Source: Arthrobacter zhaoxinii
Lineage (GTDB): Bacteria; Actinomycetota; Actinomycetes; Actinomycetales; Micrococcaceae
DNA: 64,000 nt
Assembly: GCF_025244925.1 (NCBI RefSeq)
Contig: NZ_CP104275.1
Span: 1,364,001 to 1,428,000, forward strand
Direction of reading: 5' to 3'
The notes beneath the pieces are model-generated. The model was not told where the DNA came from. It worked only from the letters and a program-made list of their open reading frames with translations, and ran no database searches. Position numbers and translations under genes: made by a program. Positions 2 to 33,212 of this stretch are shown piece after piece. The stretch's first letter is position 1. Each line of letters opens with the position of its first letter.

Positions 2-2860
2 GTGCGGCTGATTGGCCGCGCCCCCGAGCTGGTGGACCTGGTCAACGCCGGGACCGAGCGCAGCGAAGCCCTGTTCCGCCTGCTGGGGGCCTCCGACGCC
101 CTGGCGGAGTTCCTGATGCGTCATCCGGGCGACATCGGAGTCCTGCACCGCCAGCTGCGCGCGGAACCGGGCAGCACGGATGAGCCCACTCTGCGGGCCT
201 CGCTGCTCGACGCCGTGCACGCGGGCAGCGGTGCGGCGCCCGTGGCCGGCCTGACGGGCACTGAAGCCTATGTGGCGCTGCGGTCCCGGTACCGGCGGCA
301 CCTGCTGGACCTCGCCGTGCGGGATCTCGGCGCGGCATCCCCGACGGACTACCTGCCGGCGGCAGGACGGGAGCTTGCCGATCTGGCCGGCGCAGCGCTG
401 GAGGCTGCCCTGGCGGTTTCCCGAGCGGAGCTGGCGGCAAGCTTTCCGGCCGAAGAGATTTCCGCCGTGCGCCTCGCCGTCATCGGGATGGGCAAAGCCG
501 GCGCGCGGGAGCTGAACTATATCTCCGACGTGGACGTCATCTACGTGATTGAGGCCTCCGGACTGCCGGAAGAGCGGGCCTCCACCATCGGCACCGCGCT
601 GGCCGCCGGGATTTCGCGCGCCATCAACGCCTCGGCGCCGGAGCCTCCGCTCTGGGAAGTGGACACCAACCTGCGTCCAGAGGGTAAGGACGGCCCGCTG
701 GTGCGTACCCTGGACTCGCATGTGAGCTACTACCAGCGCTGGGCGCACAGCTGGGAGTTCCAGGCGCTGCTTAAGGCCCGGGCCATGGCGGGCGACCGGG
801 AGCTCGGCCGGCGCTATGAAGAAGCCGTTGCCCCCTTGATCTGGAGCAGCTCCGAACGGGACGGCTTCGTGGAATCGGTGCAGGCCATGCGCCGCAGAGT
901 CACGGACAACATCCCCGGCCACGAGGAATCACGGCAGCTGAAGCTCGGCAGCGGCGGACTGCGCGACGTCGAGTTCACTGTCCAGCTGCTTCAGCTGGTG
1001 CACGGCAGGGTCGACGAAAGCCTTCGGGTACGCGCGACGACCGCTGCCATCGCGGCGCTCAGCGAAGCCGGCTACATCGGGCGCAGCGACGCGCGGGCGC
1101 TGGACGAGTCCTACCGCTACCTGCGGGTGCTCGAGCACCGCATCCAGATGGTGCATATGCGCCGGACCCATCTGATGCCCGAGGAGGAGGCAGCTTTGAG
1201 GGCACTGGCCAAGGCCAGCGCCGGATCCCTGTCCTCCGAACGCCCCAGCGCCGAACGCCTGCGCGAACAGTGGCAGCGCACCAAACGCCTGGTGCGGCAG
1301 CTGCATGAAAGCATTTTCTACCGGCCGCTGCTCAGTACGGCCGCGCACCTCAGCGCGGATGAAGTCCGGCTGACCCCCGAGGCCGCCCAGGCGCGCCTGG
1401 CCGCGCTGGGCTACGTCGACCCCCGCGGCGCGATGCGCCACATTGAAGCACTGACCGTGGGGGTGAGCCGGCGCGCCGCCCTGCAGCGGCAGCTGCTTCC
1501 GGTGCTGCTCGCCTGGCTCGCCGACGGCGTGGACCCCGACGCCGGCCTGCTGGGCTTCCGCCGGCTGAGCGAAAACCTGGGCGAGACCCACTGGTATCTG
1601 GGGATGCTGCGCGACTCCTCGGCAGCGGGGGAGCGGCTGTGCTCCATCCTCTCCTCGAGCCGGTTCATTACCGACCTGCTGGAGGTCTCACCGGAATCCA
1701 CCGCCTGGCTCGGATCCGACAAGGACCTGGTGCCGGCGTCCTTCGACACGCAGTGGCTGGAAATCCAGTCAAAGATGTCCCGCCACCCGCACCCGGGTGA
1801 AGCCATGCGGCTCATCCGGCTGATCCGCCGCCGCGAGATGCTGCGCATAGCCATCGCCGACAGCGCCGGACTGCTCAGCCAGCAGGAGGTCGGCCGCGCC
1901 CTGGCGGACGCCGACCGTGCCGCCGTCCTGGGCGCCCTGAATGTTGCGGAGTCGGAGGTGTTCGGCAGCAGCGAGAAGCTCACGGATCTGCTGGTGGTCG
2001 CGATGGGACGGCAGGGCGGACGGGAGATCGGCTACGGCTCCGACGCGGATGTGATGTACGTGCACCGCCCGCTGCCCGGCGTCGACCCGGCGGCAGCCCA
2101 GGCGCAGGCCGAGAAGGTCGTCTCGCAGATTTCCACCTACCTGCAGCAGCCGTGCAGCCCGGCCGTCCGGGCCGAGCGCCCTTTGGTCCTCGACGCCGGC
2201 CTGCGTCCCGAGGGCAGGCAGGGCCCGCTGGTGCGCAGCCTGGAGTCCTACCGCGGCTACTACGAACGCTGGTCCGTGGTCTGGGAGGCGCAGGCCCTGC
2301 TGCGGGCGCGTCCCATGGCCGGCAGCGACGCGCTGGCCGAGGATTTCATGGCACTGATCGACCCGGTGCGCTACCCGGAGGACGTCACGGCCAAGGACGT
2401 CCGGGAGATCCGCCGGATCAAGGCACGCGTGGAAGCCGAACGCCTGCCCCGGGGAGCGGATCCTTCCCGGCAGCTGAAACTTGGACGCGGCAGCCTCAGC
2501 GACGTGGAGTGGCTCGTGCAGCTGCTCCAGCTGCAGCATGCCCGCCGGGTGCCGGAGCTGCGGACGACGGCGACCCTGCCCGCGCTGGAGGCGGTCGAGG
2601 CGGCCGAGCTGCTTCCCGCCGTCGACGTCGAGACCCTCCGGCAGGCCTGGCTGCTGGCCAGCCGGGTCCGTAGCGCAAATGTTATCCGCGGCGGACGGAA
2701 CCCCGATGTGCTGCCCTCTTCCCGCCGGGAACTGGACGCGGTGGCCCGCTGGTGCGGTTACGGTGCAGGTCAGGGCGGGGTTCTGGAGGAGGATTACCTG
2801 AAGGTCACCCGGCATGCCCGGGCCGTTTTCGAACGGTATTTCTACGGATACGGGACCTAG
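2..2860 (+). CDS. glnE: Bifunctional glutamine synthetase adenylyltransferase/deadenylylase (5' truncated)
   Basis: GlnE adds and removes AMP on a tyrosine of type I glutamine synthetase, so it switches nitrogen assimilation off and on. About 952 residues are visible. The two nucleotidyltransferase halves typical of the family are present: the first has GMGKAGARELNY followed by SDVDVIYV near residues 160-185, the second has AMGRQGGREIGYGSDADVMY near 660-685. Both carry the metal-binding D-x-D. Actinobacterial GlnE is usually about 1,000 residues and the helical N-terminus is missing, so the gene is cut by the window edge; the GTG at base 2 is probably not the true start. Its target glnA lies about 9 kb downstream on the other strand. 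Confidence 0.95.
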   Translation: MRLIGRAPELVDLVNAGTERSEALFRLLGASDALAEFLMRHPGDIGVLHRQLRAEPGSTDEPTLRASLLDAVHAGSGAAPVAGLTGTEAYVALRSRYRRHLLDLAVRDLGAASPTDYLPAAGRELADLAGAALEAALAVSRAELAASFPAEEISAVRLAVIGMGKAGARELNYISDVDVIYVIEASGLPEERASTIGTALAAGISRAINASAPEPPLWEVDTNLRPEGKDGPLVRTLDSHVSYYQRWAHSWEFQALLKARAMAGDRELGRRYEEAVAPLIWSSSERDGFVESVQAMRRRVTDNIPGHEESRQLKLGSGGLRDVEFTVQLLQLVHGRVDESLRVRATTAAIAALSEAGYIGRSDARALDESYRYLRVLEHRIQMVHMRRTHLMPEEEAALRALAKASAGSLSSERPSAERLREQWQRTKRLVRQLHESIFYRPLLSTAAHLSADEVRLTPEAAQARLAALGYVDPRGAMRHIEALTVGVSRRAALQRQLLPVLLAWLADGVDPDAGLLGFRRLSENLGETHWYLGMLRDSSAAGERLCSILSSSRFITDLLEVSPESTAWLGSDKDLVPASFDTQWLEIQSKMSRHPHPGEAMRLIRLIRRREMLRIAIADSAGLLSQQEVGRALADADRAAVLGALNVAESEVFGSSEKLTDLLVVAMGRQGGREIGYGSDADVMYVHRPLPGVDPAAAQAQAEKVVSQISTYLQQPCSPAVRAERPLVLDAGLRPEGRQGPLVRSLESYRGYYERWSVVWEAQALLRARPMAGSDALAEDFMALIDPVRYPEDVTAKDVREIRRIKARVEAERLPRGADPSRQLKLGRGSLSDVEWLVQLLQLQHARRVPELRTTATLPALEAVEAAELLPAVDVETLRQAWLLASRVRSANVIRGGRNPDVLPSSRRELDAVARWCGYGAGQGGVLEEDYLKVTRHARAVFERYFYGYGT

Positions 2861-2894
2861 CTCACGTCGCTGACGGCCCAATCGGTTCGTTGCA

Positions 2895-2945
2895 TTGCCA
2901 CTGCTCTAGGTACGCTCTATGAGGGCATTTGCGGCGTGTGCCGCA
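2895..2945 (+). promoter_or_regulatory. Candidate promoter and inverted repeat for the amino-acid ABC operon
   Basis: TTGCCA (2895-2900) and TATGAG (2918-2923) are separated by 17 bp, a plausible sigma-70-type promoter. A perfect 6-bp inverted repeat, TGCGGC-GTGT-GCCGCA (2930-2945), sits at the expected transcription start and could be an operator or a leader hairpin. The ribosome binding site near 2957-2962 and the TTG start at 2971 follow. Confidence 0.4.
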
Positions 2946-2970
2946 GTGATAGAGCTAGGAGACGTTTACT

Positions 2971-4431
2971 TTGCTTAGTGGCAAACGGGCCTTAAAGGGC
3001 CCGGCTAAACTGGCCGTACCGCTGACCACCTTCCTCGCAACCCTGGCTTTGCTGCTGGGGATTCCTGCGGCCGGAGCAGTCGCAGCGGACGGCGTCGAAG
3101 GCGAGACCTTCGTCATCGGCACCGATACCACGTTCGCACCGTTCGAATTCCGTGAAAACGGCGAACTCGTGGGCATCGACATGGACCTCCTCAACGCGAT
3201 TGCCGAGGAGGAGGGCTTCAACGTCGAAATCCAGTCCCTCGGCTTCGACGCGGCACTGCAGTCGCTGCAGTCCAACCAGGTGGACGGCGTTATTGCCGGT
3301 ATGTCCATCACCGACGAACGCCGGCAGGTCTTCGACTTCTCGGACCCGTACTTCGAGTCCGGCATCCAGATGGCCGTCGCCGAGAACAACAACGACGTCG
3401 CCGGGTACGAGGATCTGCGCGGCAAGCGCGTCGCCGTCAAGACCGGAACCGAAGGCCAGACCTTCGCCGAGTCCATCAAGGACGACTACGGCTTCGAAGT
3501 TGTTGCCTTCGCGCAGTCCGCCCAGATGTACGACGACGTCAAGGCCGGCGGCTCCGTGGCCGTGTTCGACGACTACCCCGTGCTTGCCTACGGCGTCGCC
3601 TCCGGCAACGGGCTGAAGACCGTCACCGAGAAGGAAGCCGGCAGCTCGTACGGTTTTGCCGTCAACAAGGGCGCCAATCCCGAACTCCTGACCGCCTTCA
3701 ACGACGGCCTCGCCGACCTGAAGGAAAGCGGCGAGTACGACGAGATCCTGGACACCTACCTCGAGGCCGGTGCCAAGGATTCCAGCTTCTGGTCCCTGAT
3801 CACGGACAACGGTCCCGCCTTCGCCAAGGGCATGGGCCTGACCCTGCTGGCGACCGCGCTGTCGCTGCTCTTTGCCCTCGTCCTCGGCGTGTTCTTCGGC
3901 TTCCTGAAGGTCGGGTCCTCGCGGATCCTCCGCGGCATCGCCACCGTCTACGTGAGCATCTTCCGCGGCACCCCGGTGCTGGTGCAGGCCTTCTTCTTCT
4001 ACTTCGGCCTGCCGCAGATCATCGGCCAGCCGGTGGACGTACTCACTGCAGGCGTGCTGACGCTGAGCCTGAACGCCGGCGCCTACATGACCGAGATTGT
4101 CCGCGGCGGCATCCAGTCCGTGGATCCCGGCCAGATGGAAGCGGCCCGCAGCCTCGGACTCGGCTACGGAAAGACCATGCAGAAGGTCATCATTCCGCAG
4201 GCCATCAAGATCATGACGCCGTCCTTCATCAACCAGTTCGTCATTACCTTGAAGGACACCTCCCTGCTTGCCGTCATCGGCTTTGCGGAGCTGACGTACC
4301 AGGGCCAGCAGATCTACGCGGTGAACTTCCGTACCGCTGAAGTACTGATCATCGTGGCTGCCCTGTACTTCATCGTCATTACGCTGCTGACCAAGCTGGC
4401 GGACGTCCTGGATAAGAGGTTTAACAAGTGA
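2971..4431 (+). CDS. Polar amino-acid ABC transporter, fused substrate-binding protein and permease
   Basis: One 486-residue polypeptide joins an exported solute-binding domain to a membrane permease, as in GlnP-type importers. Residues 1-39 look like a signal sequence. A binding-protein family 3 domain runs from about 45 to 265 ([11 protein letters not shown], then [13 protein letters not shown]). A HisM/GlnP-type permease domain with several membrane helices runs from about 280 to 480, including the EAA-like loop [12 protein letters not shown]. The start is a TTG with GGAG about 9 bases before it. The stop overlaps the ATPase start by 4 bases (GTGA), so the two are translationally coupled. 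Substrate is probably glutamine, glutamate or another polar amino acid; the location between glnE and glnA fits but does not prove this. Confidence 0.9.
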
Positions 4432-23291: not shown

Positions 23292-23611
23292 AGGCACCTA
23301 GGCTACGGAAACCCCGGTGGAGTGGCCCGGACCGCGCACCAGCGGTTCGGGCCAGTCCGAACGGCGCCCGGTCATGGAGCCCGGCGGGCCGGAGCAGCAG
23401 GAAACCCAATTGACGCCGCACAGCGGATCAATGGCCCGCCGGCGTTGAAGCCCGGAAAGGGCCGGAGTAGCCTCAGGATGGGTATTTTCCCCGATTCCCC
23501 AAGACATAGCGCCGTATTTTTCGGCGGGGACCCCGGGCGACCCGTGCGCGTGGCCGCAGCCCGCCACGGTGCATGTGCCACCCATCCTCGAAGCAAGGAA
23601 TGATTGCTCGA
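23292..23611. other. 320-base intergenic region between the tricorn gene and crcB
   Basis: No gene is supported here. A 13-bp hairpin (23323-23335 with 23342-23354, one wobble) about 30 bases after the tricorn stop may end its transcript. Further on, GGATGGGT (23476-23483) is exactly complementary to ACCCATCC (23580-23587), closing a 112-base GC-rich leader directly before the crcB ribosome binding site. It contains smaller hairpins (for example GTGGC with GCCAC). The fluoride-riboswitch consensus was not found. Confidence 0.4.
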
Positions 23612-24055
23612 ATGCGACCACAATACCTGCGCTGGGGCCCCATCGGGCTAGTCGCCCTCGGAGGCGCAGCCGGTGCTGCCAGCCGCGAGGGCCTGTCCCT
23701 GGCCATCCCGAACCTCGGTGAAGTGCCGGTGGCGATCCCGATCATCAACGTGGTCGGCGCCTTTCTGCTCGGCTACCTCTACGAGGCAGTCACCCGCCTG
23801 GACAGTTCCGGCCCGACCGGCAAGAACCTCAAGCTGCTGCTCGGGACCGGCTTCTGCGGCGGCTTCACTACCTACAGCTCCCTGGCCACCGACACGGCCG
23901 TGCTCTTCCGCGACGGGTTTCCCTGGACCGCCATAATCTATGCCCTCGGCACGGTAATTGTCGGTGCCTGCGCCACCTGGGTGGGCATCGCAGCCGCAAG
24001 CAGTCTCCACGCCCGTGGCCCGGGCCGGCAGCATAAGCAGGAGGATGCTTCATGA
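23612..24055 (+). CDS. crcB: Fluoride channel CrcB/Fluc, first subunit
   Basis: A 147-residue four-helix membrane protein of the Fluc family that lets fluoride leave the cell. It has GAAGAASREGLSL, NVVGAFLLGYLYE (the conserved Asn of the pore) and the hallmark GTGFCGGFTTYSSLATD. The ATG at 23612 is preferred because AAGGA (23595-23599) is 12 bases upstream; the ATG at 23600 directly abuts that site. It overlaps the second crcB by 4 bases. In many Gram-positives two different CrcB proteins form the dimeric channel. Confidence 0.93.
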   Translation: MRPQYLRWGPIGLVALGGAAGAASREGLSLAIPNLGEVPVAIPIINVVGAFLLGYLYEAVTRLDSSGPTGKNLKLLLGTGFCGGFTTYSSLATDTAVLFRDGFPWTAIIYALGTVIVGACATWVGIAAASSLHARGPGRQHKQEDAS

Positions 24056-24429
24056 CCCCCGGAATTTTCCTGCTGCTGGCGCTGGCCGGCGGGATAGGTG
24101 CAACAGCGCGGTTCGTCATCGACGGACTCATCCGCGCCCACCTCAAGACGCGGTTTGCGTGGGCGACGACAATCATCAACGTCTCCGGGTCCCTGGTACT
24201 CGGTCTGCTCACCGGCCTCACCATCGAGCACTTCGTGTCGACCGACCTCAGTATCGTGATCGGGACGGGGTTCCTGGGCGGCTACACCACCTTCAGCACC
24301 GCCAGCTACGAAACGGTGCAGCTGATCAAGGAGGGCCGCTACGGTGCCTCCTTCATCAGCGGCATCGTTATGCTGGTGCTCTCCGTCGCCGCCGCCGTGA
24401 TTGGCCTGTGGGTGGGGGCAGCGCTCTGA
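24052..24429 (+). CDS. crcB: Fluoride channel CrcB/Fluc, second subunit
   Basis: A 125-residue partner of the preceding protein with the same architecture: GGIGATARFVIDGLI, INVSGSLVLGLLTG and GTGFLGGYTTFSTASYE with the phenylalanine/threonine track. The ATG lies in the ATGA overlap with the first gene, so equimolar synthesis is likely. Unlike the first copy it lacks an N-terminal extension. It converges with the urease operon end. Confidence 0.93.
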   Translation: MTPGIFLLLALAGGIGATARFVIDGLIRAHLKTRFAWATTIINVSGSLVLGLLTGLTIEHFVSTDLSIVIGTGFLGGYTTFSTASYETVQLIKEGRYGASFISGIVMLVLSVAAAVIGLWVGAAL

Positions 24430-24438
24430 AAGTCCCGC

Positions 24439-25368
24439 TTACGTGCGCCTGGCTGCGGGAAGGTAGTGGGCGATCACCAGGAACACCCAGGTGGTGAGGA
24501 TATACGGCCAGGTGTAGGTGGGAGCTGAAAGATCGTGCATAATCACCGTCACCACCGCCGTCACCACGGTTCCAATCACGGCCAGAACCCATGAGAGCGT
24601 GCTGCTGCGGAGGAAAACCACCGCGAGGGCAATCGCGGTGAGCACACCGGAGTAACCGGCCAGGCCGTTCGCCGTCTCAGTGAGGCTTTCGCCCATTGCC
24701 AGTGCGCACAGGCTCCCCACCACGCTGCCCAGCAGCCCCGCCAGCCCTACTTTCCAGCTCGCCACGAACAGCCCGAGCAGAATCAGCGCCCCGGACCAGA
24801 CGTTGTTGATCAGCACCACCTCGGACACATTCGTCAGCAGGGAGCGTGCAAAAGCGAGCGGTTCTGAGTCGATGGTGGCCGACGGCGCCGAGGTCACGTG
24901 CAGTGCCTCCGTGCTGAGCAGTATGCCCGTCGCCACGATGCAGAACGGTGCCGTCGTGGACGGCAGGGAGAACACCCTCAGCGGTGTCTTGGTGAACAGC
25001 GCAACCACCAGCCATGTCACCGGGGCGCAGAGTAAACCGCCGATCAGGGTGATCGGATATGCCGCCCACTGACCCCCAATGGTGGAGAACGTCGCAGCAC
25101 CGACGAGAGCGCCGCAAAAGCCTTCCAGGCCCGACGTCACCGATGACGAATCGGCCTTGAGGAGGCGCCCGGCCACCGTGTTTCCCGCACAGCCGATCAG
25201 CACGAGCAGGGCAAGACGCCAGTCGACCACAACGAAGGCGGCCAGAATCAGCAGCGCCGTGTAGATATTGCTCTGGAAGAAGATCTGCGAGAGACCCTGG
25301 CACCAGCCCTTCAGCCAGCCCGCACCCGAGATGGACGGGTTCGGCGATGCCGCGCTGGCGCTGCTCAT
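24439..25368 (-). CDS. Urea transporter (UT family)
   Basis: A 309-residue membrane protein with two homologous halves, each with several helices, as in bacterial urea channels. The first half carries FFQSNIYTALLILAAF and SGLEGFCGALVGAAT, and the second NNVWSGALILLGLFV and NGLAGYSGVLTAIAL; the paired L-x-G-x-x-G/S-x-L elements mark the family. The frame is open 70 codons upstream, but the ATG at 25368 has AAAGGA before it and overlaps the nickel permease stop (ATGA). It is the last gene of the urease operon and supplies the substrate. Confidence 0.9.
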   Translation of the reverse strand: MSSASAASPNPSISGAGWLKGWCQGLSQIFFQSNIYTALLILAAFVVVDWRLALLVLIGCAGNTVAGRLLKADSSSVTSGLEGFCGALVGAATFSTIGGQWAAYPITLIGGLLCAPVTWLVVALFTKTPLRVFSLPSTTAPFCIVATGILLSTEALHVTSAPSATIDSEPLAFARSLLTNVSEVVLINNVWSGALILLGLFVASWKVGLAGLLGSVVGSLCALAMGESLTETANGLAGYSGVLTAIALAVVFLRSSTLSWVLAVIGTVVTAVVTVIMHDLSAPTYTWPYILTTWVFLVIAHYLPAARRT

Positions 25369-26534
25369 ATCTGTTCCTTTCGCGGGGCCTCGTCCGGCGG
25401 TGTTCCCGGCCCGCCGGGGCCGGCCGCGCCGCCCCCGGCGCCGGCCCCGCCGCTCGCCAGCGCCCATCGCTCCTCCACATGGCCCAACCGCCAGTACGCA
25501 GTGGAGGTCAACCAGACCAGTATCAGCGTGGCCACGACAATGTAGCCCACGTTCTCGAGGTCGATGCCGGCTACCCACCCGGTGAGCGGGTCCCGCAGCC
25601 CCAGTTTCTCGTTCAGCAACCCGACCAGCTCAATGCCGCCGATCATGACGGCAATCATGACTGAGAGCCCGGTAATGGTGAGGTTGTAGTACAGCTTGCG
25701 AACCGCGTTAACGCTTGCCCAGCCATAGGCTTTCACCATCACGGCCGAATCGAGTGTGTCGAACAGGCTCATGCCTGCGGCAAAGATCAGGGGCAGGCAG
25801 AGGATGGCGTACCAGGGAAGCCCCGTAGCCGCCCCGGTCCCGGCCAGCACCAACAGGGCAATCTCGCTGGCGGTGTCGAAGCCGAGCCCAAACAAAAAGC
25901 CAACGGCATACATCTTCCCCGGGCGGTCGATCGTCCGAAGCATCGGCCGGATGAGGCGGCTGATGAGGCCCCGGCCCTGCAGGTGCCGCTCCAGCTCCAG
26001 CTCGTCGAGGTCGCCGTTGCGCGAGGCCCGCCAGACCTTGAGGATTCCGATGAACGCCACGGCATTGATGAGTCCGATGAGCAGCAGGAAGACTCCGGAG
26101 ACGACCGTGCCGAAGACACCGAGGCCGTTGCGTACCTCGTTGCCGTCATCGCTCAGCCCTACCGCCCAGCTCACCCCGAGCGCCAGCAGCGCCGCCATGA
26201 GGAAGACGATGGTGGAGTGCCCCAGGGAGAAGAACAATCCGACCCCGGCGGCCGGCTTGCGCAGGTCCACGAGTTTGCGGGTGGTGTTGTCGATCGCAGC
26301 GATGTGGTCGGCATCGAAGGCGTGCCTCACGCCGAGGACGTAGGCCACCACGGCGATGCCAACCCCGAAGACCGAGGAGCCCAGCTGCAGATGCAGCGGT
26401 TCGACCAGGAAGAAGAACAGTCCGAAGCCCGCGATGTGCAGCAGCGCGACCGGAATGAAGGCGAGCACCACCTGCGCCCGGTAGGAGCGCCCCGGGCCGA
26501 CAGCCTTCTCTTGCGTGTTCGCTTGTTCACTCAC
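25365..26534 (-). CDS. NiCoT-family nickel/cobalt permease
   Basis: A 389-residue membrane permease with the family signature RHAFDADHIAAIDN (HX4DH, about 72-85). The other conserved segments are FFSLGHSTIVF and LFGLGFDTASEIALL. In this position it should import Ni2+ for the urease active site. GTG at 26534, with GAGAGGGG upstream, was chosen; the frame continues 44 codons further up into ureD without family similarity. It follows ureD by 14 bases and overlaps the urea transporter by 4. Confidence 0.93.
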   Translation of the reverse strand: MSEQANTQEKAVGPGRSYRAQVVLAFIPVALLHIAGFGLFFFLVEPLHLQLGSSVFGVGIAVVAYVLGVRHAFDADHIAAIDNTTRKLVDLRKPAAGVGLFFSLGHSTIVFLMAALLALGVSWAVGLSDDGNEVRNGLGVFGTVVSGVFLLLIGLINAVAFIGILKVWRASRNGDLDELELERHLQGRGLISRLIRPMLRTIDRPGKMYAVGFLFGLGFDTASEIALLVLAGTGAATGLPWYAILCLPLIFAAGMSLFDTLDSAVMVKAYGWASVNAVRKLYYNLTITGLSVMIAVMIGGIELVGLLNEKLGLRDPLTGWVAGIDLENVGYIVVATLILVWLTSTAYWRLGHVEERWALASGGAGAGGGAAGPGGPGTPPDEAPRKEQI

Positions 26535-26548
26535 CGTTAGACCCCTCT

Positions 26549-27646
26549 CTAGCTCTTCCGAATTGCGGGTGCCCGCTTCCCGGTCAGCAACTCGTGCACC
26601 GCCGATGCGGCGGCCGTGTTTGCGGCCGCCACAGCTACGGTGTCGTTGCCCACCAGGCGCATCCACACGCCGGCATCACCGGGTAACGTGCTCACCCCGA
26701 AGATCAGGTCACCGCCGCTTTCACCAAGCGCACGATGCAGGGTATCAGCGAGCCGGGCCGCCGGAACAAGGGGTGTGAAGACGTACAGCATGGCGAGCAC
26801 ATCGTGGTTGGCAAGCACGCCGAGCCCGGTGGCGCCGGAGACCGCTCCGTCGGCTCCCGCTCCCGGGCTGAGCCGAACCCGGTCCAGGGCAACCAAACGG
26901 CCGTCGGGCCGCCGCACCTCGAGGTCGGAGGCGTACACATCGTAGGCGTGCCGCTCCCCGCGTGCGAGCCTGCCCGCGTACATGGTGTCGCCGAGCAGCA
27001 AGGTTGCGGACTCGTCGATCACCACCGATGTCTGCTGGTAATGGCGCGAAGCGGCGAAGGGCACCACTGGCTCGGGCAGGTACTCCACATAGGCGCCTTC
27101 TTCGACCGTGATGTTCATCAGCGCGGAGGCGTAGTCATGGTCCATGCGGTAGACCCGGGTCTGGGTCTGAGTGGTGATGTGCGCCGAAGTGCCGGGACCG
27201 AAGCTCAAATCGGTGCGCAGCCGGTCTCCCTGCAGAATGCCGCCGCCCGAGGACATGAGGTAGGTGTAGGCCATGTCGGGGCGGAGCGGGTTGAAATAGA
27301 GCGGATGCATGATCTGCAACGGTGACTTCTGGTAGTGCTGCACCAGCTCGGTACGGCCCCGGTTGCAGGCGAACCCAAGCTGCAGAATGCCGACTTTGCC
27401 CGGGCTGCCGACGGGCAGGTTCCTCCACTCTTCCTCGGTGTGCCGCCGAATTTCCGCAGGCACCCGGCCGGGCTCATAGAACGCCGGCTCGAGTCGGTAG
27501 CCGCCCGCGTTGGGTTCTCTCCGTCCGGCGTCGCGGGAAACCGGCGGACGGGGGAGAGGGCTCACGCTCGCGAGACCGCCGGCACCCGTCGCGGTGTTCC
27601 CGCCGGGTGCCGGCGCACTTCGCTGTTCCGTCGCTTTGAGGGTCAT
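26549..27646 (-). CDS. ureD: Urease accessory protein UreD
   Basis: A 365-residue protein that binds apo-urease and with UreF and UreG forms the nickel-delivery complex. The first 70 residues are Pro/Gly-rich and not conserved. The family core starts near residue 85 (VGILQLGFACNRGRTELV) with PLYFNPLRPDMAYTYLMSSG, then GGILQGDRLRTDL and TTQTQTRVYRMD. The ATG at 27646 overlaps the ureG stop (ATGA). The long N-terminal extension compared with typical UreD (about 270 residues) is unusual. Confidence 0.92.
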   Translation of the reverse strand: MTLKATEQRSAPAPGGNTATGAGGLASVSPLPRPPVSRDAGRREPNAGGYRLEPAFYEPGRVPAEIRRHTEEEWRNLPVGSPGKVGILQLGFACNRGRTELVQHYQKSPLQIMHPLYFNPLRPDMAYTYLMSSGGGILQGDRLRTDLSFGPGTSAHITTQTQTRVYRMDHDYASALMNITVEEGAYVEYLPEPVVPFAASRHYQQTSVVIDESATLLLGDTMYAGRLARGERHAYDVYASDLEVRRPDGRLVALDRVRLSPGAGADGAVSGATGLGVLANHDVLAMLYVFTPLVPAARLADTLHRALGESGGDLIFGVSTLPGDAGVWMRLVGNDTVAVAAANTAAASAVHELLTGKRAPAIRKS

Positions 27647-28278
27647 CCGATGAGCTCGGTTCTGGCACCGTTCCACTGCGACATGATTTGTTGGTGGAGT
27701 TCATCGACGCCGAACCCGGTGAGGGAATTGGTCAGCACCACGGGCCGATCCTCGCGTACCCGGTGTGCGTCGGACTCCATCACGTTGAGGTCGGTGCGGA
27801 CGTACTGCGCGATGTCGATCTTGTTGATCACCAGGATGTCGCTGTCGGTGATGCCGGGACCGCGCTTGCGCGGCATCTTCTCGCCCTCAGCGGTGTCCAG
27901 TACGAACACAAAAACATCGGCAAGCGCCGGGGAGAAGGTAAGCGTTAAGTTGTCGCCGCCCGACTCGTAAATGAGCGTGTCGATGTCGGGAAACCGTTCC
28001 AGCATCTCCGCGCCGACGGCGAGGTTCATGGTCGGATCGTCGCGCACGGCCGTATGCGGACAGGAGCCGGTCTCGACGCCGATCACCCGCTCCGGGTCGA
28101 GGATGCCGGCCAGCTCCCTGCGCACGTGGTGGGCATCCTCCTGGGTATAGATGTCATTGGTGATGACGCCGGGGGTGCGCCCGGCCTCGATCAACAACGG
28201 CACCAGCGCTTCCGTCAGCGCCGTCTTGCCGCTGCCCACGGGCCCGCCGATGCCAATCCTCAACACGTTCTCACTCAT
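27643..28278 (-). CDS. ureG: Urease accessory GTPase UreG
   Basis: A 211-residue SIMIBI-class GTPase that drives nickel insertion. It has the P-loop GIGGPVGSGKTAL (residues 9-21), TNDIYTQEDAH, GVETGSCPHTAVRDD with the Cys-Pro-His nickel site, ESGGDNLTLTFSP and the guanine motif INKIDIA. The N-terminus lacks the long His-rich stretch seen in some actinobacterial UreG. The ATG at 28278 follows a 79-base gap after ureF. Confidence 0.97.
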   Translation of the reverse strand: MSENVLRIGIGGPVGSGKTALTEALVPLLIEAGRTPGVITNDIYTQEDAHHVRRELAGILDPERVIGVETGSCPHTAVRDDPTMNLAVGAEMLERFPDIDTLIYESGGDNLTLTFSPALADVFVFVLDTAEGEKMPRKRGPGITDSDILVINKIDIAQYVRTDLNVMESDAHRVREDRPVVLTNSLTGFGVDELHQQIMSQWNGARTELIG

Positions 28279-28357: not shown

Positions 28358-29047
28358 CTAACTGGCGAACAAGCGTGCCTCGGCCCTCTCATGCTGTGCT
28401 GACATGACGTCCGCCATGGGCGCAAAGCCGCCAAGATCCGCGAGATTGCGCTCCAGGGCGGCCTCCGTCACCTGCTCCATGACAGGGGATGTCTGAAGCA
28501 GAATGGCCTGCGCCTGCCGGTGGTCTGTCAGCCGCAGGCGAAGGGCGGCCCCGACGAAGCTCGCCGAGAAGGCGAACAGGTCCGATGCAACGGCCTGCCG
28601 GGTCGCGACTCCGTTGGCTGCGTACACCACCGCCGCCGCGACCGGCTGGCAGCCGGGCGTGCTACGCCGCCGTACCCGCTCGGCATACTCGGCGAGGAGT
28701 CCCTGGTCAATCAATTCGGCCCCCAGATCAATCAGCTGGTGGCCGCTGCGTACGGAGGCGGTGCGCATTTCGGCGTTTAGTTTCGAGGCGAACAGCCGCT
28801 GGTCGACCTCCTGCACGAGGCCGACGTCGCCGTGGTCCGCTGCGCGGTGCGCTGCAGCAAGTGCCGTTGCGTCCCCGGGACCGACGGAGTGCAGCAGCAG
28901 ATCGGCCAGCAGCTGCTGCACTCCGTCGGCAGACACGAGCCACGCCTGCCTGTAGCCCTCGAGCCCGTGCGACATCGTATAGAAGCCGCTGGGAAACGCC
29001 GAGTCAGCGAACTGCAGGCTGGTCAGCAACTGGCGTACATCCGACAT
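28358..29047 (-). CDS. ureF: Urease accessory protein UreF
   Basis: A 229-residue all-helical protein that acts with UreD and UreG. It starts LLTSLQFADSAFPSGFYTMSHGLEGY, whose D-S-A-F-P-x-G and S-H-G-L-E motif is diagnostic (residues about 10-30). SGHQLIDLGAEL is in the middle. The start lies 9 bases after ureC. Confidence 0.95.
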   Translation of the reverse strand: MSDVRQLLTSLQFADSAFPSGFYTMSHGLEGYRQAWLVSADGVQQLLADLLLHSVGPGDATALAAAHRAADHGDVGLVQEVDQRLFASKLNAEMRTASVRSGHQLIDLGAELIDQGLLAEYAERVRRRSTPGCQPVAAAVVYAANGVATRQAVASDLFAFSASFVGAALRLRLTDHRQAQAILLQTSPVMEQVTEAALERNLADLGGFAPMADVMSAQHERAEARLFAS

Positions 29048-29056
29048 GCCGTGTCC

Positions 29057-30781
29057 CTACGCGAGAAAGAACAGCTGGGTCATCGGCAGGGACTGGGCCG
29101 GCGGGATGGTGGCCAGCGTGCCGTTGTACGTCACGTCGTATGTCTCCGGGTCCACCTCGATCACAGGCGTCGCGTTGTTGCGGACCATGTGCTCCTTGCC
29201 GATGCCGCGGCAGCGTTGCACCGGCAGCACCTGGCTCTCCAGCCCGAGCCGCTCCGGCACGCCCTTGTCGATGGCCGCCTTCGACATGAAGGTCACCCGT
29301 GTGCTCTGCAGCGCCTTGCCCTGCGCACCGAACATGGGCCGGTAAAACACGGGCTGCGGGGTGGGCAGCGAGGCATTCGGATCACCCATCAGTGCCCAGT
29401 TGATCAAGCCGCCCTTGACGATCAGCCGGGGCTTGGCGCCGAAGGATTGGATCGGCCAAAGCACGATATCGGCGATCTTGCCGGCCTCCAGTGAGCCGAT
29501 GTAGTCGGACACGCCCTGGGTGATGGCCGGGTTGATCGTGATCTTGGCGAGGAAGCGCAGCACCCGGAAATTATCGTTGTCGCCGCTCTCCTCCGGCAGC
29601 GCGCCGCGCTGGTCCTTGCAGTGGTGGGCGATCTGGAAGGTGCGCATAAACGATTCGCCGATGCGACCCATTGCCTGGGAGTCGGACGAGACCATCGAAA
29701 TGATCCCTTCATCGTGGAAAACCGTCTCCGCGGAGATCGTCTCGGCCCGCACCCGGGAATCCGCGAAGGCGACGTCTTCGGGGACGTCGTGGGAGAGGTG
29801 GTGGCAGACCATCACCATGTCGAGCAGCTCATCCACCGAATTGACGGTGTAGGGCAGGGTCGGGTTCGTCGAGGACGGGAGCACGTTCGGGTGGCCGGCC
29901 ACCTTGATGATGTCCGGGGCATGGCCGCCGCCGGCACCCTCGGTGTGGAAGGTGTGGATGGTGCGGCCGTCGATGGCGTCAAGGGTGTCCTCCACATAGC
30001 CGGCCTCGTTGAGGCTGTCTGTATGCACCGAGATCTGCACATCATAGTCATCGGCCACGGAGAGTGCGTTGCTGAGCGCAGCCGGCGTCGTGCCGTAGTC
30101 CTCGTGTACCTTGAGTCCGCATGCGCCGGCCTCGACCTGTTCTATCAGGGCATCGGGCAGCGAGCCGTTCCCCTTGCCGAGGAAGCCCATGTTGACCGGC
30201 ATCCCTTCGGCCGATTCCAGCAGTCGGGCGAGATTCCAGACGCCGGGAGTCGTGGTGACGCCGTTGGTGCCGTCGGTGGGTCCCGTGCCGCCGCCGAAGA
30301 GGGTCGTGATGCCGTTGGAGAGGGCGGCCAGTGCCTGTTCCGGCGAAATATAGTGCACGTGTGAGTCGATGCCGCCGGGGGTGGCGATGAAGTGCTCGCC
30401 GGCCAGCAGCTCGGTCCCGGGGCCAACCACCAGGCGCGGATCGACTCCGCTCTGGGTGTGCGGGTTGCCGGACTTGCCGATACCGGCGATCTTGCCGTCA
30501 CGCACACCGATGTCGCCCTTAATGACACCCAGCACCGGGTCCAGGATGATTGCGTTGGTGATCACCAGGTCAAGCACGCCTTCAGCGGAAGTTGCCTGGG
30601 GATCGGCCGCCATGCCGTCACGTGCGGTCTTGCCGCCGCCGTAGACCACCTCGTCACCGTAATGGCCCTCGTTGTAATCCTTCTCGATCTCGATCACCAG
30701 ATTGGAATCGGCCAGGTGGACCCGGTCGCCGGTGGTCGGACCAAAGAGGTCGGTATACTGCTTGCGCGAGATTTTCGCCAT
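29057..30781 (-). CDS. ureC: Urease alpha subunit
   Basis: The 574-residue catalytic subunit hydrolyses urea to ammonia and carbamate with two Ni2+. All ligands are visible: His141 and His143 in IDSHVHYI, the lysine to be carbamylated (Lys224) in [10 protein letters not shown], His253 (ISVHTDS), His279 and the flap [11 protein letters not shown] with Cys326/His327. The ATG at 30781 shares one base with the ureB stop; a GTG one codon upstream is an alternative. The length is normal. Confidence 0.98.
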
Positions 30782-31227
30782 CACTGCTTCCCCTCTTCTG
30801 GGCGGCCCGTTTGTGCTGCAGGGCCCGCGTTGTTTGCACTGGGTTTGGAGCCCGGTTTCCCGTCGGAAAATCCGAGCTCCTTCATCCGCGCCATGGCCCG
30901 GATCTTCGTTGCCGCAGAGTCGAGCCCGCCGTCGACGAGGTTGTTGAAGCCAATGACCCGCCGGTTTCCGGCGTACGCGGTGAGGGTCACCTCGCGGGTG
31001 TCACCTGCTTCGAAGCGGATTCCGGTACCTGCCGGCACATCGAGGTGCATGCCGTAGGCCAGTTCGCGTTCGAACAAAAGCGCCTTGTTGGTCTCGAAAA
31101 AGTGAAAATGCGAGCCGACCTGCACGGCCCGGTCGCCGGTGTTGCTCACCAGCAGGGTGACGCTCGGCCTGCCGGCGTTGATCTCGATCTCTTCTTCGCG
31201 GTGGTGGTAGGTAGGGCTGCCCAGCAT
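30781..31227 (-). CDS. ureB: Urease beta subunit
   Basis: A 148-residue subunit. The family core covers residues 1-110 ([19 protein letters not shown], then [15 protein letters not shown], then GFNNLVDG). The last 35 residues are a polar Gly/Ser/Pro tail not seen in short UreB proteins. The ATG at 31227 has AAGGGAAGGA upstream. UreA and UreB are separate, not fused. Confidence 0.95.
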
Positions 31228-31275: not shown

Positions 31276-32172
31276 TCAACTCAAGGTGATCGGCGTTGGG
31301 TGGGGATGGGTGTGGCCGTCGGCCGCCCCGTGGTTGTGGGGATGGCCGCTGTCCGCGTCAAAGGCGTGTGAGTGCGCGTAACCGTGACCGTGATCCGCCT
31401 GCAGTCCGGCGTCAATACCGGTGGAGCCGTGGCCGAGGTTGTGCAGTGCGTCGCGAACACGCTCGCCGATAACGCGAAGCACCGCCTGCTCGCTCAGCAG
31501 TGCACCGTAGAACCGGGCCTCGGCGAAACCTCCCTCGCCGAAGGGCACCGCTTCACCGTGCACGGTGGGCACCCGCCGAAATCCTGCGGGAACAACCACC
31601 GTCTCCGTGCTGCCGAGAAGACCCAGCCTCCGTACGGCCTCCAGGAGTGCCTCCGCGTCGGTGACGGCGGCAACCTCCACCAGGTTGCCCGCCCCGTGCG
31701 TGCGCACCAGATGCGCGATGCGGTAGAGCTCCGCATCATCGAAGGGATTGCCTGCGTCCGCGACGATCAGCACTGCCGCCTCCGGGGCCAGCCTGCGCAC
31801 CTCCACGGCGGCGGCCCGAAGCCACGCCGTGAGATGGTCGGGGGTGCCGAATTGGTCCGCCAGGGCCAGCGGGGCCGGGGCGGCACCGTGCGGGACGGCC
31901 CCTGCTTCCAGCCAGCGGAGCGTCTTCGCCGTGTCCGCGACGAGGGTCGGGTTACGGCCGAAGGTCATCGGCAGCACGACGACGGGTGCCGTGTCCGCTC
32001 CGTCGGCAGTGTCCTGGCGCAGCCGCGTGAGGACATTGTGCAGAGGTCGGCCGGCGGGAGTAACGAGGGCGTCCGGAAAGGAAGCCGTGACGAATGAAAG
32101 ATCCGTCCCGTTGCCGCTCTCATGTCCTCCGACCAGCACCACCGTTGCACGCGGCTCGGTGGGCCAGGTCAA
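31276..32172 (-). CDS. CbiX/SirB-like chelatase-fold protein with His-rich tail in the urease operon
   Basis: About 298 residues that look like two tandem CbiX-type (sirohydrochlorin chelatase) halves. The first half starts ATVVLVGGHESGNG, replacing the usual GHGS motif. The second has VLIVADAGNPFDDAELYRIA and VVVPAGFRRVPTV. The canonical second metal-binding His is not evident. The last 53 residues contain 11 histidines (for example GHGYAHSHAF and GHPHNHGA), a metal-binding tail like that of UreE. It lies between ureA and ureB in a urease operon with no ureE, so a nickel chaperone or storage role is inferred. The likely start is the TTG two bases after the ureA stop; an earlier ATG at 32292 would overlap ureA by 119 bases. 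Confidence 0.75.
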   Translation of the reverse strand: MTWPTEPRATVVLVGGHESGNGTDLSFVTASFPDALVTPAGRPLHNVLTRLRQDTADGADTAPVVVLPMTFGRNPTLVADTAKTLRWLEAGAVPHGAAPAPLALADQFGTPDHLTAWLRAAAVEVRRLAPEAAVLIVADAGNPFDDAELYRIAHLVRTHGAGNLVEVAAVTDAEALLEAVRRLGLLGSTETVVVPAGFRRVPTVHGEAVPFGEGGFAEARFYGALLSEQAVLRVIGERVRDALHNLGHGSTGIDAGLQADHGHGYAHSHAFDADSGHPHNHGAADGHTHPHPTPITLS

Positions 32173-32173
32173 G

Positions 32174-32479
32174 TCACACCCCGATGGGATCGTGACAGGA
32201 GACGAGCTTGCTGCCGTCGACGAAGGTCGCCTCGATCTGCAGGAGGGGCAGCCGCTCACGGACGCCGTCCATACACTGGCTTTCAGAGACAATGGTCTTA
32301 CCGAGTTCCATCACCTCTGCGACGGTCCGGCCGTCGCGGGCACCCTCCAGGATCGCCTCGCAGATGAGGGCGGTGGCCTCGCTGACATTGAGCTTGGTGC
32401 CCCGCTCGCGCCGCTTACGGGCCAAATCCGCCACTTGGTATACGTAAAGCTTGTCTATTTCCTTGGGAGTGAGGTTCAT
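32174..32479 (-). CDS. ureA: Urease gamma subunit
   Basis: A 101-residue subunit beginning MNLTPKEIDKLYVYQVADLA, with GTKLNVSEATALICEAILEG, then LPLLQIEATFVDGSKLVSCHDPI at the end. These are diagnostic. The ATG at 32479 has AAGGTGAAGG upstream. It is the first gene of the nine-gene operon. Confidence 0.97.
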   Translation of the reverse strand: MNLTPKEIDKLYVYQVADLARKRRERGTKLNVSEATALICEAILEGARDGRTVAEVMELGKTIVSESQCMDGVRERLPLLQIEATFVDGSKLVSCHDPIGV

Positions 32480-32701: not shown

Positions 32702-33130
32702 CTAGGACTCCAGCGTGGCGTCCATGGTGATTTCGATGCCGGTCAGTGCCTGCGAGACCGGGCAGCCGGTCTTCGCCGACTCGGCAATGTCGTCAAACTG
32801 CTCCGCCGTCAGGCCGGGAACGACGGCGGTGACCTTGAGGTGGCTGCCGGTGATGCCCGTGCCCGGAACGAAGGTCACGTCTGCGGATGTGGAGATCCGC
32901 TCTGCCGTCTTGCCTGCCTCGGCAAGCGCGTTGCTGAAAGCCATGGAGAAGCAGGCCGAGTGGGCCGCGGCAATAAGTTCCTCAGGGCTGGTCTTCCCGT
33001 TGGCCTCCTCGGCGCGGGCCTTCCACGTAACGTCGTAGGTTCCAAGGCCGGAGGAGTCGAGGGTGACGTCTCCCTTGCCGTTGAAGAGGTCGCCGTTCCA
33101 GACGGTGTGGGCTGAACGGACTGTAGCCAT
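32702..33130 (-). CDS. OsmC/Ohr family peroxiredoxin-like protein
   Basis: A 142-residue thiol peroxidase of the OsmC group. The two redox cysteines are in AAHSACFSMAFS (about 59) and AKTGCPVSQAL (about 124). SPEELIAAAHSA is the family motif, and the catalytic Arg is expected in the N-terminal half. The ATG at 33130 with AAGGAG upstream was chosen over an extended frame. Confidence 0.9.
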   Translation of the reverse strand: MATVRSAHTVWNGDLFNGKGDVTLDSSGLGTYDVTWKARAEEANGKTSPEELIAAAHSACFSMAFSNALAEAGKTAERISTSADVTFVPGTGITGSHLKVTAVVPGLTAEQFDDIAESAKTGCPVSQALTGIEITMDATLES

Positions 33131-33212
33131 GGGGGTCTCCTTAAAACAGTGATGGGACGGGGCCGGCAACAAGCCGGCGCACCATCCCATCCTATTTCCG
33201 CTGTTGTGCGGA

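Follow-up and report, generated by a model that had tools for sequence, protein, structure and literature searches.

Introduction

UreG, through its conserved CPH motif, carries nickel to apo-urease with GTP hydrolysis. UreE is the operon-encoded protein proposed to bring nickel to UreG, and some UreE proteins (for example, at locus L104 of our sample) carry a His-rich end. In UreE-less bacteria such as Mycobacterium and Streptomyces, a His-rich segment of UreG itself is thought to compensate for the missing protein (Table 1 of PMC2770081). In one table of that paper, every genome lacking UreE but two has a His-rich UreG; with Bradyrhizobium japonicum and Frankia CcI3 as exceptions, this is one published answer to the question of the nickel donor in UreE-less bacteria (PMC2770081).

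The class II chelatases (CbiX, SirB, CbiK and CfbA; PF01903, PF06180) have a two-lobed fold, and the sirohydrochlorin chelatases have a pair of conserved His residues in one half, His10/His74 in Archaeoglobus CbiX-S and His14/His79 in CbiX-L (PMC7689651). Such enzymes are described as often lacking metal specificity and as inserting Ni2+ too. The CbiX-L of Bacillus megaterium is an active cobaltochelatase with a 4Fe-4S centre; it can insert cobalt without its long C-terminal His-rich region, for which a role in storing and delivering metal was proposed (PMC7689651).

Here we describe a gene of Arthrobacter zhaoxinii, named cbxU in this analysis (protein, CbxU), that encodes a chelatase-fold protein with a His-rich tail inside a urease operon. 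The window, that is, the whole stretch of DNA analysed, comprises 64,000 nucleotides of contig NZ_CP104275.1.

Results

The first-pass annotation of the window had reported an open frame for a His-rich CbiX-like protein between ureA and ureB, in a urease operon with a NiCoT permease gene and without ureE. The frame was present, and Pfam and NCBIfam searches confirmed the gene order ureA, cbxU, ureB, ureC, ureF, ureG, ureD, followed by the genes for the permease and a urea transporter (Table 1). The cbxU gene starts 1 base past the ureA stop codon, and the ureB start lies 48 bases beyond cbxU. No ureE was found in the operon or elsewhere in the complete, one-contig genome (no UreE_N match; best UreE_C match at E 0.28, below the cut-off). 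A long inverted repeat, seen by eye upstream of ureA between 32479 and the gene at 32702-33190, is perhaps a terminator.

Table 1. Features of the cbxU urease operon and adjoining genes (window positions).
Feature	Position	Strand	Basis and remarks
ureA, urease gamma subunit	32174..32479	minus	PF00547; start at MNLTPKEI
cbxU	31276..32172	minus	298 aa, TTG start at 32172; open frame; chelatase-fold protein with His-rich tail
Chelatase-like core of CbxU	31432..32151	minus	residues ~8-247, two Rossmann-like halves; alignment, model, fold match
C-terminal His-rich tail of CbxU	31279..31407	minus	residues 256-298; alignment and low model confidence
ureB, urease beta subunit	30781..31227	minus	PF00699; C-terminal extension
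ureC, urease alpha subunit	29057..30784	minus	PF00449/PF01979, TIGR01792
ureF	28358..29047	minus	PF01730
ureG	27643..28278	minus	TIGR00101; MSENVLRI start; no His-rich end
ureD	26549..27676	minus	PF01774
NiCoT nickel permease	25365..26666	minus	PF03824, TIGR00802, above cut-off
Urea transporter (UT family)	24439..25578	minus	PF03253

As first annotated, 11 His were counted among the final 53 residues of the translation. His makes up 3.5% of the body of the window protein compared to 23% (10 His) of the last 43 residues, and there is no Cys at all. A sequence search found 223 relatives. In an alignment of 71 proteins (the window protein and 70 relatives) every tail had 8 to 24 His, which makes it unlikely that the enrichment arose by chance. 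The tail begins with the family signature GLxADHGHGYAHSH, the ADHGHGYAHSH start being nearly fixed in the alignment; tails vary widely in length and sequence. It is probably disordered, since the confidence of the structure model is low from about residue 261 onward. The invariant residues of the alignment include H17, E18, R73, W87, H113, R119, D145 and R151.

Two tandem Rossmann-like chelatase-type halves, proposed earlier from the sequence, were borne out by a confident structure model (pLDDT 89, pTM 0.83), which matches class II chelatases and has the two-lobed fold of CbiK, SirB and ferrochelatase. A CbxU profile matched actinobacterial sirohydrochlorin chelatases with an hhalign probability of 95.9. 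The window protein had no Pfam or NCBIfam family match, UreE_N and UreE_C included. Pfam CbiX (PF01903) was reached at E≤1 by 42 of the 71 aligned proteins (best 1e-6), the window protein not among them, and its curated cut-off was passed by four of eight relatives scanned singly (P0088, P0096, P0099 and P0100). No CbiX-type model was among the NCBIfam matches listed for the 71 proteins, and no chelatase was found at E≤10 in PDB sequence searches with a single CbxU or with the profile. The window genome (one contig, 3.47 Mb) had no CbiX above the cut-off.

The catalytic residues had been described as partly lost, and the alignment agreed with this description: H17 was kept in all 71 proteins and the second catalytic His, mapped onto CbxU by eye and not from a superposed structure, had no conserved counterpart. 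No conserved His was present at residues 64-90 (consensus VVVLPMTFGRNPT...) or at 133-145, the matching strand end of the second half, so that H17 is the only member of the sirohydrochlorin chelatase pair found. Among 80 distinct CbxU sequences there were four true losses of H17, all in operonic proteins that keep the His-rich tail (replaced by R, R, Y and P at L021, L284, L301 and L306, respectively); L191, L310 and L315 do not cover the site. CbxU shares with the class II chelatases the two-lobed fold, the His at the end of the first strand and the size, but it has no evident second catalytic His, sits in a urease operon and carries a His tail with a nearly fixed opening motif.

A survey of urease clusters with and without ureE, a check suggested in the first-pass annotation, tied cbxU to urease operons in five family codes. 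Within the genus, cbxU was found in 15 of 29 genomes. Of 35 UreC copies in 24 of these genomes, 20 belonged to one type without cbxU and 15 to a second type beside cbxU; the 15 genomes with cbxU were exactly the 15 with the second urease type. The counts from the class, order and family searches are lower bounds, because only 6 to 11 candidates were scored per genome. The gene was present in at least 6 of the 396 genomes of the order sample (UreE above the cut-off in 24, urease alpha subunit in 107), in at least 14 of 210 genomes of the family of G532 and in at least 48 of 210 genomes (50 places) of the Streptomyces-type family of G123. Weak profile matches in the class (E 1e-5 to 1e-9, L009-L016) were left out of the counts; one of them, L013, was rejected as an ordinary CbiX.

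Together, 15 places from the genus, 2 further places from the order sample, 14 from the family of G532 and 50 from the family of G123 gave 81 CbxU places. The arrangement ureA-cbxU-ureB was observed in 77, one (L187) was cut by the contig end after ureA-cbxU, and three lay outside a recognisable urease operon. The combination that would have pointed to a chelatase, complete catalytic residues in a cobalamin or siroheme gene context, did not appear: no complete His pair was seen, the context was that of urease in 77 of 81 places, and no tetrapyrrole genes were recognised in the window urease operon by Pfam or NCBIfam. Two Streptomyces-type genomes (G848, L283/L284; G745, L288/L289) hold two cbxU urease operons each. 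At L279, also Streptomyces-type, cbxU and ureB form one open frame of 671 codons with no stop (1151-3166), which could be a natural fusion or contain an inner start codon. Two plasmid records carry the gene unannotated, one from Streptomyces (L268) with the whole operon and one from Embleya (L269, 4974-6138; outside the 81) with a His-rich cbxU and ureB, and no ureA or ureC within about 5 kb (10.7 kb fetched).

In a midpoint-rooted tree of 199 UreC sequences, all 60 CbxU operons fell into one clade with no intruders (support 0.996). Identities between pairs of CbxU correlated with those between the corresponding UreC (r 0.89), a value reached by none of 2000 permutations. Outside the clade, the closest UreC (L158) comes from an operon with neither cbxU nor ureE, whose UreG has 6 His in frame before the P-loop.

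No ureE was present in the 57 CbxU loci that have all of ureABCFGD (two of them on one contig). The search for UreE was genome-wide in the genus and order sample and covered the operons alone in the Streptomyces-type genomes; UreE_N was found in none of the 20 cbxU genomes searched genome-wide and in none of the 29 genus genomes. Of 127 urease places in the 396 order genomes, 124 were fetched (left out were G303:C221, G332:C103 and G370:C255). They comprised 5 loci with cbxU (the window counted in; one locus outside the order and one without urease left out), 24 with ureE, 95 with neither and none with both. CbxU was linked to urease operons and present where UreE was absent. These counts speak against a need for cbxU at every locus without ureE, an idea that was rejected, and the 95 loci with neither gene show that urease does not generally depend on a separate nickel donor. 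UreE and CbxU are alike in operon membership and in the proposed step from nickel to UreG, and some UreE also have a His-rich end, but CbxU has no UreE domain and the two never occurred in one operon here.

The His-rich segment was then compared among the three classes of operon. UreG ends with at least 4 His were found in none of 21 distinct sequences of the UreE class, none of 56 of the CbxU class (including L072, a locus without urease) and 29 of 36 of the class with neither gene; left out were three UreG in which the P-loop pattern was missing, a locus that lacks ureG and a duplicate sequence. In the other seven of the 36, the reading frame ahead of the chosen start encodes 3 to 9 His. In the neither class the segment was mostly a C-terminal tail of the kind PMAPHFHADEDGGYVHTH. 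Like the His-rich UreG of the UreE-less bacteria in PMC2770081, the CbxU operons encode a His-rich segment; in the CbxU class it belongs to a protein other than UreG, whose own ends lack one. The His-rich segment changes carrier between classes of operon, and CbxU is a third carrier. Because each class is close to one UreC clade, this complementary pattern rests on few independent events. Both arrangements occur in the window genome, which has a second complete urease operon, ureABCFGD (L066, at G000:C1:844545, within G000:C1:836000-852000), whose UreC shares about 53% identity with the window UreC; the L066 urease has a UreG with 9 tail His and no cbxU, and the window urease has a plain UreG and cbxU.

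Viewed at the N-terminus alone, the His pattern of UreG had seemed to go against complementarity; this reading was rejected, since the C-terminus shows the opposite. The piece GYxH[ST]H, common to CbxU and UreG tails, was found in 9 of 26 long UreG tails (shuffled mean 0.00, maximum 1). Since the UreG loci that bear it are related, the piece was not taken as evidence for a transfer of the motif as one unit between the two proteins.

An automatic count found a His-rich tail (at least 5 His) in 75 of 77 operonic copies (80 distinct sequences, L187 counted in). In the two misses, the His-rich stretch lies in another frame (L305) or an end with 6 His was split in the automatic parse (L310). The three relatives outside a recognisable urease operon (G661, G693 and G718) had no His tail. 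In G661 (L072, 15346-16962), the tail-less cbxU relative, whose end has 3 His in 40 residues, adjoins a UreG relative with SPH in place of CPH, as well as sulfate-assimilation-like genes (named from reading the translations); no urease alpha subunit was found in this draft genome of about 200 contigs. The pair represents either decay or a new use. G693 and G718, which share one genus code, had no ure gene within the fetched stretches, and the three cases stand for no more than two events. The Embleya plasmid, where cbxU keeps the His-rich tail with ureB alone, speaks against linking tail and urease strictly.

Discussion

CbxU is probably a nickel-holding accessory protein of one actinobacterial urease clade that hands Ni2+ to UreG. 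The urease-linked nickel role suggested in the first-pass annotation gained support from the operon link in five family codes, the lack of ureE in 57 full loci and the position of the His segment on CbxU where UreG has none. Judged from sequence comparisons, the balance also tips, if less firmly, towards CbxU being a third, separately evolved urease nickel delivery protein, with a decayed chelatase site and a metal-handling tail in place of UreE or the UreG His end.

We propose that CbxU arose from an ancestor of the sirohydrochlorin chelatase type (CbiX/SirB/CbiK) and that tetrapyrrole metallation has most likely been lost from its folded core. UreG, or the complex of UreG, UreF and UreD with apo-urease, would dock on this core. 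The tail would bind several Ni2+ and pass them to UreG, which would carry them to apo-urease via CPH and GTP hydrolysis; CbxU would thereby take the step of UreE, or of His-rich UreG in other UreE-less bacteria. Nickel is not the only metal that His-rich tails can bind; Zn, Cu and Co are others. Three observations suggest nickel here: the enzyme served is a nickel enzyme, the Arthrobacter operon is followed by a nickel permease gene, and the tail takes the place that UreE or a His-rich end of UreG has in other operons.

The same permease is compatible with a passive buffer, in which the tail stores or detoxifies incoming nickel in the manner of other His-rich storage proteins, with no specific handover to UreG. 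The wide variation of the tail and its retention beside ureB alone in Embleya would fit this explanation, which we nevertheless regard as unlikely, because the ureA-ureB position is kept in 77 of 81 places, the opening motif is nearly fixed in 71 proteins and L068 to L071 have no NicO within the fetched stretch. The kept place and the nearly fixed opening motif, together with the lack of a His-rich end on the UreG of this class, point to the UreG step.

A gene placed between those of the two small subunits could also encode a structural component or scaffold of urease or its activation complex, which might for instance hold UreA and UreB in an open state, the tail being accessory. UreB is longer in the CbxU class (median 142.5 residues from the match start, compared to 106 in the neither class and 125 in the ureE class), and both the L279 open frame and the Embleya pair of cbxU and ureB are consistent with such a part. 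The L279 frame is, however, explicable by an inner start codon, and the tail is kept in 75 of 77 operonic copies by automatic count and missing in the three non-operonic ones, a distribution that makes metal binding look like the retained feature of CbxU; a scaffold role is accordingly improbable. Least probable is a working chelatase making a nickel, cobalt or iron tetrapyrrole: the fold match, the H17 kept in the alignment and the broad metal use of such enzymes, Ni2+ included, are outweighed by the lack of a conserved His at the second catalytic place or matching strand end (placed by eye), by the loss of H17 in four operonic members and by the lack of recognised tetrapyrrole genes in the window operon, and we know of no urease cofactor of this kind.

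For delivery of metal by CbxU, a described parallel is CbiX-L of B. megaterium, likewise a chelatase-type protein with a long C-terminal His-rich region (PMC7689651); it may show what the CbxU ancestor looked like. Unlike that enzyme, the window CbxU has no Cys for a 4Fe-4S centre and sits with urease. The public names CbiX and sirohydrochlorin chelatase on many family records are probably misleading for the urease-operon members.

As a function, nickel donation to urease is known already; as its carrier, CbxU is new within the open-access full text searched. No recognisable description of cbxU was found there in papers on CbiX, sirohydrochlorin or cobaltochelatase together with urease or UreG, or in the urease maturation literature that mentions chelatase, and the available part of a paper on metals in Frankia that counts CbiX and UreG contains no urease operon with CbiX in it. 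The proposed role may also account for published cases, Frankia CcI3 among them, that lack both UreE and a His-rich UreG. If correct, it would supply a nickel carrier for one class of such operons and would make CbxU an example of a biosynthetic chelatase that came to carry metal for an enzyme.

A pair of CrcB-type fluoride channel genes lies beside the window urease (23573-24429; the copy at 24052-24429 was tested with Pfam), and CrcB genes also accompany CbxU ureases at L001-L005, L068-L070, L079 and L290-L299. CrcB-like matches were present at 19 of 56 fetched CbxU loci, none of 42 loci with neither gene (one of them counted twice) and none of 21 with ureE, in fetched stretches that differ in length. 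Since fluoride inhibits urease, the link between CrcB and CbxU ureases may be functional.
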